Below are positions 16,597-18,881 of a stretch of DNA of 64,000 nt, one piece after another (position 1 is the first letter of the stretch; each line of letters starts with the position of its first letter). The stretch covers positions 3,145,748 through 3,209,747 of the forward strand of contig NZ_CP081001.1 of NCBI RefSeq assembly GCF_029590555.1, written 5' to 3'. The notes under the pieces were generated by a model that was given only the letters and a program-made list of their open reading frames with translations, was not told the DNA's origin and did not search any database. A program made the position numbers and the translations under genes. This stretch comes from Sphingobium sp. V4 (GTDB lineage Bacteria > Pseudomonadota > Alphaproteobacteria > Sphingomonadales > Sphingomonadaceae).

Positions 16597-16693
16597 CCGT
16601 TCGGGCTGTTCTGACAAGTCATTTGCCTTGTCAGGAAAGCCCCGCACTCTCTTGAAGAGAAGAGCAGCCCTTCGACAGGCTCAGGGTGAACGG
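16597..16693. repeat. Palindromic repeat element (REP-like), degenerate copy
   Basis: The right arm at 16670-16693 matches the arm at 8625-8648 except for three bases. The start of the left arm, CCGTTCGGGCTG near 16598, is recognisable but diverges into a separate small hairpin (16611-16618 with 16627-16634). The element fills the gap between the rplT terminator and lysE. It is the second copy in the window of the repeat at 8571-8648. Confidence 0.65.
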
Positions 16694-17347: not shown

Positions 17348-17360
17348 GCCACAAGCGTCC

Positions 17361-17391
17361 GTCATTCCCGCGAAGGCGGGAATCCATCTCC
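17361..17391. repeat. Left inverted repeat of the GIY-YIG cassette
   Basis: This 31-base arm contains the hairpin ATTCCCGC-GAAG-GCGGGAAT. It is the exact reverse complement of 17753-17783. It starts 13 bases after the lysE stop. Confidence 0.9.
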
Positions 17392-17402
17392 GGACCAAGC
17401 CT

Positions 17403-17728
17403 ATGCAAAGAGACTTTGATCCAACCGTCTACATCATCGCCAGTCATCGGAATGGCACACTTTACGGTGGTATCACGTCAAATCTGCTAAAGCGTCTCCA
17501 TGAACATCGTTCAGACTTGATCGATGGCTTCACGAAAGACTACGGCGTGCATCGTCTGGTCTGGTTCGAAAGCGGCGGATCGATGGAAGAGGCAGTCCGC
17601 CGCGAGAAGCAGATCAAGACGTGGAACAGGAATGGACGATCAACCTGATCGAGCGGGCCAATCCCGATTGGCGTGATCTCGCCATCGATCTGGGGTTCGA
17701 GCCATTGGAAAGCCGGCGTGTCGATTGA
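17403..17728 (+). pseudogene. GIY-YIG nuclease-domain protein, frameshifted
   Basis: The frame from ATG 17403 encodes TVYIIASHRNGTLYGGITSN, with the GIY-YIG pair in degenerate form (VYI and LYGG), then LLKRLHEHR and EAVRREKQIKTWNR. At 17631-17632 one base is missing. The original frame then stops at 17648, while the -1 frame continues with [16 protein letters not shown] to TGA 17726-17728. That continuation is the usual C-terminus of these roughly 100-residue UvrC-like GIY-YIG proteins. The intact protein would be about 108 residues. It lies wholly inside the inverted repeats. A sequencing error could produce the same picture. Confidence 0.85.
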
Positions 17729-17752
17729 GCGCCATGATATTGGGACAGGCCG

Positions 17753-17783
17753 GGAGATGGATTCCCGCCTTCGCGGGAATGAC
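17753..17783. repeat. Right inverted repeat of the GIY-YIG cassette
   Basis: This arm is the exact 31-base inverted complement of 17361-17391. It ends six bases before the pheS ATG at 17790, so its outer end and GACAGGG form the immediate upstream context, and possibly the ribosome-binding site, of pheS. Confidence 0.9.
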
Positions 17784-17789
17784 AGGGCT

Positions 17790-18881
17790 ATGACCGAAAT
17801 TAGCGCATTGAAAGCCGGCCTGATCGCCGACATCGCCGCCGCCGACACGCTCGACGGGCTGGAGGGGCTGCGCGTGGGGGCGCTGGGCAAGAACGGGGTC
17901 GTGACCGGCCTTTTGAAGACGCTCGGCCCCATGTCGCCGGAGGAGCGGCTGGAGAAAGGCCCGCCGATCCAGGATTTGCGCGAGTCTGTCACCGCCGCGC
18001 TGGCGGAGCGGAAGGCCGCGCTGGAGCAGGCCGCGCTCGACGCCCGGCTCGCGTCGGAACGGATCGACATGACGCTGCCCGCGGACATCGGCCCGCAGGG
18101 ATCGGTCCACCCGGTCAGCCAGGTCATGGACGAACTGGCGGAAATCTTCGCGGACCTGGGCTTTGCGGTCGCCACCGGGCCGGAGATCGAGGACGACTGG
18201 CACAATTTCACCGCGCTCAACATCCCCGAGACGCACCCGGCGCGCGCCATGCACGACACCTTCTATTTCCCCGATGAAGAGGGGCAGAAGAAGATGCTGC
18301 TGCGCACCCATACTTCGCCGGTGCAGATCCGCACCATGATGACGCAGGAGCCGCCGATCCGCATCATCGCGCCCGGCCGCGTCTATCGCAGCGACTCCGA
18401 CGCGACCCACACGCCGATGTTCCACCAGATCGAAGGGCTGGTGATCGACAAGGGCATCACGCTCGGCCATCTCAAATGGACGCTGGAAACCTTCCTCAAG
18501 GCGTTCTTCGAGCGCGAGGACATCGTCCTGCGCCTGCGCCCGAGCTATTTCCCGTTCACCGAACCCTCGGTCGAGGTCGATGTCGGCTACACCCTGACCA
18601 ATGGCCAGCGCGTGATCGGCGGCGACGGCGACGCGCTCGGTGGCGGCTGGCTGGAAGTGCTGGGCAGCGGCATGGTCAACCGCCGCGTGATCGAGGCGTG
18701 CGGCCTTGACCCCGACGAATGGCAGGGCTTCGCCTTCGGCACCGGGGTCGATCGCCTCGCCATGCTCAAATATGGGATGAACGACTTGCGCGCTTTCTTC
18801 GACGGCGACCTGCGCTGGCTCAAACATTATGGCTTCTCAGGCCTCGACGTACCCACGCTGAGCGGAGGAGTGGGCGCATGA
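17790..18881 (+). CDS. pheS: Phenylalanine--tRNA ligase, alpha subunit
   Basis: PheS is the catalytic subunit of the alpha2-beta2 class II synthetase. The 363-residue protein has a coiled N-terminal arm and a motif 2 region [20 protein letters not shown]. Its motif 3 is [16 protein letters not shown] near the end. The ATG chosen gives [20 protein letters not shown]; longer in-frame starts would translate the inverted repeat. The gene ends in an ATGA overlap with pheT. A repeat cassette lies immediately upstream. Confidence 0.97.

Follow-up and report, generated by a model that had tools for sequence, protein, structure and literature searches.

The RAYT (TnpA-REP) enzymes with their REPINs (REPtrons, GTAG REPs) are the closest described counterpart of the locus analysed here. 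In these systems REPs flank a nuclease gene, and gene-free doublets with outward-pointing heads share the ends of the gene-holding unit. The nuclease is mostly single-copy and the partners are repeat-specific. RAYT genes are often inherited vertically in a fixed position. The enzyme is an HUH tyrosine transposase (Y1), and its REPs carry the tag GTAG. A second group for comparison are the GIY-YIG homing endonucleases, which exist in group I introns and as free-standing forms and whose genes may promote their own spread.

A further REP superfamily, tagged CGTC, was described in 2013 (Di Nocera et al., PMC3733652). CGTC REPs are common intergenic repeats that include Neisseria dRS3 and Rickettsia RPE-4/6, and the paper lists TGTC as a variant head. 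It found no transposase gene associated with them, and suggests that these repeats lost their transposase or rely on those of other elements (PMC3733652). The paper is cited by both PMC6006769 and PMC12306157. Searches of open-licence papers listed none recognisable as connecting GIY-YIG proteins with REPs.

The unit between lysE and pheS

The window, i.e. the whole analysed stretch of 64,000 nucleotides from Sphingobium sp. V4, contains a small GIY-YIG gene enclosed by inverted repeats. The features are as follows.

17361..17783, forward strand: whole REP-nuclease-REP unit, 423 bp (inverted-repeat search; layout matched in relatives)
17360..17391, forward strand: left CGTC REP (sequence, inverted repeat and fold; fits the CGTC-1 description), with head CGTC at 17360-17363, stem at 17364-17371 and 17376-17383, loop at 17372-17375 and tail CCATCTCC at 17384-17391
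17403..17648, forward strand: GIY-YIG nuclease gene, cut short to an 81-aa ORF by a frameshift (PF01541, E 2.7e-13 in the V4 genome; ORF list)
17633..17728, forward strand: out-of-frame continuation of the GIY-YIG gene to its stop, the conserved C-terminal part (separate frame translation; alignment of homologues)
17753..17784, reverse strand: right REP, inverted, head TGTC (sequence, inverted repeat and fold), ending 5 bp before the ATG of pheS

The original prediction of exact 31-base inverted repeats around the gene, giving a unit of 423 bp, was confirmed by an inverted-repeat search, and the similarity extends further: the arms at 17361-17396 and 17748-17783 are 94% complementary over 36 nt, 31 nt of which are exact. 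Each arm was also correctly proposed to form its own hairpin. Folded alone with its head as DNA, it yields an 8-bp stem and a 4-nt loop at -8.9 kcal/mol; only 1/200 and 0/200 shuffles folded as well. The predicted placement agrees with the ORF positions, which put a lysE-like ORF (stop at about 17347) on one side and pheS (ATG at 17790) on the other.

The window REP consists of an unpaired CGTC or TGTC head, an 8-bp stem that starts with AT (ATTCCCGC), a 4-nt loop (GAAG) and a CCA-type tail (CCATCTCC), which are the features given for family CGTC-1. In the V4 genome (4.5 Mb), 36 arms fit the 31-nt pattern at up to three mismatches, and 24 of them are paired heads-out, forming eleven doublets and the GIY-YIG unit, as expected of CGTC-1 dimers. 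At the same tolerance, the 18-nt arm core has two copies in the 64-kb window (0.25 expected), and the 26-nt arm has 25 matches genome-wide compared to none for the reversed pattern. Judged by these features, the arms match CGTC-tagged REPs of family CGTC-1. They agree with the 2013 description (PMC3733652) in head, stem, loop and tail and in forming dimers joined at their heads; that paper found no associated transposase gene, whereas here the space between the REPs is occupied by a GIY-YIG gene.

The window copy of this gene is frameshifted. The ORF at 17403-17648 lacks the C-terminal part, which is found in another frame up to position 17728, and the frameshift precedes the conserved N. The locus of a second strain of the same species (G080) aligns to the window over 3300 bp at 99.6% identity and free of gaps. 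It therefore shares the frameshift, which is thus not the error of one assembly. A lone copy of the repeat CCCTTCGACAGGCTCAGGGTGAACGG is located upstream of lysE at window positions 16668-16693; repeats of this type also serve as arms for a different V4 GIY-YIG gene (L001, G000:C1:870897).

Intact homologues conform to the GIY-YIG superfamily, with its domain and the conserved residues Y, R, E and N. Across 22 diverse members ten columns do not vary, among them Y, R, H, E and K in the region of the active site; the N is conserved to at least 90%, and conservation is similar over 109 sequences. Pfam GIY-YIG matched all 22 members, T5orf172 being the sole other Pfam hit, and NCBIfam gave weak hits only, with a group I intron endonuclease model in 5/22. 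At the pheS locus, the median dN/dS was 0.13 (97 pairs of 16 homologues, the broken window copy excluded); the protein is under purifying selection. The closest fold to the structure model of the homologue from G029 (mean pLDDT 89) is that of UPF0213 (E 9e-4), followed with weaker E-values by Slx1 and the N-terminal domain of UvrC. Predicted fold and catalytic layout resemble these proteins, whereas identity is low (22-31% among the matches listed) and the UvrC-like gene of V4 (L003) is armless.

By analogy, the system would work like RAYT and REPINs, since inverted REPs flank a nuclease gene and gene-free doublets of the same REP occur in the genome. It is not a member of that group, because the enzyme is a GIY-YIG protein instead of a Y1 transposase and the REPs are tagged CGTC or TGTC instead of GTAG. 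It shares the catalytic domain with the GIY-YIG homing endonucleases but differs from them in that no intron or intein is involved, in its flanking REP hairpins and in its tie to a dispersed repeat family.

GIY-YIG genes and REPs in other genomes

A search of 80 relatives yielded 110 GIY-YIG loci among the matches listed (30 returned by the search and 80 fetched), including the locus of the window and a V4 remnant (L135). Arms were scored by a motif-free inverted-repeat test across the gene with a threshold of 16, and windows with identical geometry that were shifted within each locus served as control. The threshold was reached at 94/110 loci, compared to 1/212 displaced windows; 16 loci were below it. 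When each position was counted once according to flank similarity, 40 of 54 carried arms (12/12 shared positions and 28/42 others); as an independent count, this is the fairer one. No arms were found at ParE loci from the same genus (0/30), even at a threshold of 12. Of four GIY-YIG genes in V4, three reach a score of 16, L003 being the armless one. In all, 130 GIY-YIG loci among the matches listed for the relatives were read: 17 of 19 further loci were armed, with three copies of one unit already counted among them; in the added batch of 20, L140-L142 repeat the unit L139, and L143 is L139's own place. Two loci deserve mention. The remnant L135 (G000:C1:2021992-2022120) is short, adjoins a REP doublet and is perhaps a decayed unit. 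L088 (G070:C5:158053-161043) holds two equally scoring GIY-YIG genes at a distance of 578 bp, which may be a tandem duplication; it fell below the threshold when scored with the first gene only.

The entire ORF lies within the arms in all 94 armed units. The head is GTC[AG], pointing outward on both arms, in 72 of these and GTGYT in seven; three have inward heads and twelve fit no rule. Many REP types are represented in the arms, for example GTCATGCTGAAC..., GTCATTGCGAGCG..., GTCACCCCGGGCTT... and GTCATGCCAGCGAAGG.... For 40 armed loci with unlinked flanks, similarity of the proteins and similarity of the arms covary (Mantel r 0.52; 0/2000 permutations as high).

A scan of named genomes covered 80 of 587 confirmed stretches, many of them from MAGs of uncertain taxonomy, with an apparent overlap of at least two loci (L257, L264) with the 110 above. 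Arms were found at 52/80 loci, compared to 0/148 displaced controls, and 28 loci were armless. By label, 34/57 non-sphingomonad and 18/23 sphingomonad loci of these 80 stretches were armed. Armed examples are from Rhodanobacter (L269), Methylomonas (L263), Dechloromonas (L266), a planctomycete chromosome (L281) and a Nitrospira MAG (L285); armless ones are from Halopseudomonas (L286), Undibacterium (L318) and Caenimonas (L324). In Neisseria gonorrhoeae (L325), the arms count for less because the gene sits in an array of eleven dRS3-like repeats within 3.3 kb. Among plasmids, 34 records match; of the two flanks read, pNL2 of N. aromaticivorans is armed (score 31) and that of Rhizobium sp. K1/93 is not (score 7). 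Both comparisons agree with the expectation that GIY-YIG genes lie between paired arms more often than by chance, and the units with matching ends in relatives support the proposed analogy to REPs with a dedicated nuclease of the GIY-YIG instead of the RAYT type.

Pairs of arms were analysed in a census of 313 arms from ten genomes, with neighbours defined by a distance below 1 kb and pairing within one REP type; rows of G006, G007, G020, G024, G035 and G044 and the type-3 rows of G021 and G031 were left out. All 108 neighbouring pairs were oriented heads-out. Gene-free doublets with 55-63 bp from start to start account for 96 pairs, three pairs are spaced 114-244 bp without a GIY-YIG gene, and the nine pairs spaced 359-392 bp all contain one. 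It had been argued that arms occurring almost always without a gene would speak against a dedicated element. Literally this is the case, but such an excess of gene-free doublets is how a REPIN-like, non-autonomous population looks; the informative direction is therefore whether the genes have arms, and most genes of the family do.

The number of REPs tracks only the matching type of nuclease. Among 49 genomes, the median number of type-1 arms, not counting the two of the unit itself, was 25 in the 17 genomes that carry the pheS unit and 2.5 in the other 32 (P 2.6e-6). For type-3 arms, it was 9 in the 17 genomes that have a GIY-YIG gene in type-3 arms and 1 in the remaining 32 (P 3.7e-5), where the latter genomes may hold further GIY-YIG genes, as loci are those among the matches listed. 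The crossed comparisons were flat (P 0.73 and 0.28), and a joint regression gave t values of 5.5 and 5.2 for the own enzyme compared to 0.2 and -0.5 for the other. While the P values from the 49 genomes ignore relatedness, independent contrasts on a tree of the pheS region, for the 30 genomes with the pheS slot read, yielded P 0.0006 for type 1. A type-1 test with 61 genomes gave P 9.5e-7, but G084, G085, G086 and G088-G091 were assumed to be without the unit, two of which (G084 and G090) have 33 and 30 arms; reliance is placed on the tests with 49 and 30 genomes. Two exceptions were noted. G037 has 38 type-3 arms, and no GIY-YIG gene with type-3 arms was found among the loci read; its GIY-YIG gene L085 has related arms. 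G009 has 53 type-1 arms without the pheS unit; the GIY-YIG gene L047 of this genome has inward, type-1-like arms.

Genomic positions and traces of insertion

Of 97 loci scoring at least 14, 68 have flanks in common with others and form twelve groups, and 29 are solitary, besides 13 low scorers. By this comparison of flanks, the nuclease seems often to be inherited at a fixed place, the units being mostly single-copy at shared positions; RAYT genes behave likewise.

At the pheS slot, the unit is present in 12 and absent from 18 of the 30 loci read. Relatives thus do not all share it, so that the universal sharing that was to count against the original prediction is not what is seen; the clean empty site sought there was not found. 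In 15 of the 18 unit-free loci, a gap of 68-103 bp between lysE and pheS contains a conserved upstream sequence that occupied genomes do not have, and the other three have no lysE there, so that this is no simple insertion. The unit at this site is old and mostly vertically inherited. The conserved sequence upstream of pheS in unit-free genomes reads CCCTTTCCTTG...CGCTAAGG. To judge from these sequences, pheS expression may differ between unit-holding and unit-free genomes.

A second slot (L087) was compared in 30 genomes. It holds a GIY-YIG unit with TTGCGAGCG arms in five, a type-1 doublet in three, a doublet of the CCAGCGAAGGCTGG type in 14 (one of them a hybrid), a single hairpin in one, only 18-19 bp in four and other sequence in three. 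Depending on the genome, the slot is thus occupied by a GIY-YIG unit, by a REP doublet of another type, or by neither.

A base-exact empty site was found neither at pheS nor at the L087 slot, nor for the doublets of G027 in comparison with relatives, nor between two genomes of the same species; absence or exchange was clear in these comparisons, and the junctions were inexact. The target-site duplication of a classical insertion sequence was not observed: for the units, there were 0/72 at 2 nt, 2/72 at 3 nt (0.25 expected) and 0/72 at 4 and 5 nt, and for the doublets of G027 0/21 at 2 nt or more. G036 was considered as a case of clean transposition and rejected, as four contig ends share one GIY-YIG unit (at least two copies) and identity runs about 15 and 46 bp beyond the arms. 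In G027, a doublet of another repeat type (TTCGACAGGCTCAG; L330:5264-5360, G027:C11) extends over the end region of a gene, and in G012, G036, G046, G083 and G015 that gene has no such doublet.

The doublet lists of two strains of the window's species look alike as judged by eye, and the sole difference that was followed is one doublet with an internal deletion that kept both REP heads. With the nuclease frameshifted and the lists alike, the family looks dormant in this species.

Interpretation and alternative readings

The unit is probably a CGTC-REP doublet with a GIY-YIG gene in its spacer, acting as a REPtron-like driver in a system of the REPIN/RAYT kind. For this reading speak the recurrent architecture, the type-specific co-occurrence, the covariation of proteins and arms, purifying selection, the conserved catalytic residues and the slot exchange. 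Counting against it are the missing exact empty site and target duplication, the largely single-copy state of the nuclease units at shared positions, the armless loci, G037, the hydrolytic nature of GIY-YIG enzymes and the frameshifted window copy. The unit would be the driver, and the gene-free heads-out doublets would be its non-autonomous, REPIN-like relatives. The nuclease may recognise the REP hairpin or a cruciform; Slx1, among the near folds, is a nuclease of branched DNA. It might then nick at or near the CGTC head, and the element would be copied elsewhere by host repair or replication, without target duplication. GIY-YIG enzymes hydrolyse DNA and are not known to rejoin it, so that the copy step would need host enzymes. 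In this sense, we infer mobility of the units.

It is unlikely that a selfish GIY-YIG nuclease of the homing type invaded the spacers of REP doublets as a passenger, by cutting and repair copying, and that the REPs spread by other means. The domain is that of known homing endonucleases, the model for group I intron endonucleases gives weak hits in 5/22 members, and the gene is placed exactly in the doublet spacer. A passenger, however, should not raise the number of REPs together with the matching nuclease only, and homing would retain the arms of the host doublet, whereas the GIY-YIG arms at L087 differ from the doublets that other genomes have there. Somewhat less probable still is a domesticated enzyme of REP maintenance, which would act for the host on REP hairpins in DNA or RNA (removal of cruciforms, mRNA ends) and would have lost mobilisation. 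Vertical inheritance at shared positions, purifying selection and the modelled fold near Slx1 and UvrC domains are compatible with such a role, but the units occupy many distinct positions, several GIY-YIG types coexist within one genome, and the 56 type-3 arms of G027, many of them perfect and in unrelated contexts, suggest recent spread. That abundant REPs flank any small intergenic gene by chance is highly improbable and was rejected on the controls: CGTC REPs are common between genes (PMC3733652), but arms occur at 0/30 ParE loci and in 1/212 and 0/148 displaced windows, the 4.5-Mb V4 genome has only 36 of them, and different arm types go with different proteins.

The driver reading can be extended beyond this locus. 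The chances seem about even that, in several bacterial phyla, the CGTC REP superfamily has its own mobilising enzymes in the form of small stand-alone GIY-YIG nucleases. Such systems would form a class of bacterial mobile element whose driver is a hydrolytic hairpin nuclease in place of an HUH, DDE, tyrosine or serine enzyme. They would be RAYT's missing counterpart. Because the pairing recurs in many bacteria, the GIY-YIG nuclease is a candidate for the enzyme by which CGTC REPs, described as lacking one, are spread or maintained. Architecture, copy number and covariation tie the two together, so that the question of the CGTC REP enzyme can be put to the test using a single small protein and a single short hairpin. 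If the answer is positive, the many genes that so far bear no more than the label 'GIY-YIG nuclease family protein' would gain a role, and dispersed repeats such as GTCATGCTGAAC... and GTCATTGCGAGCG... would gain a partner.
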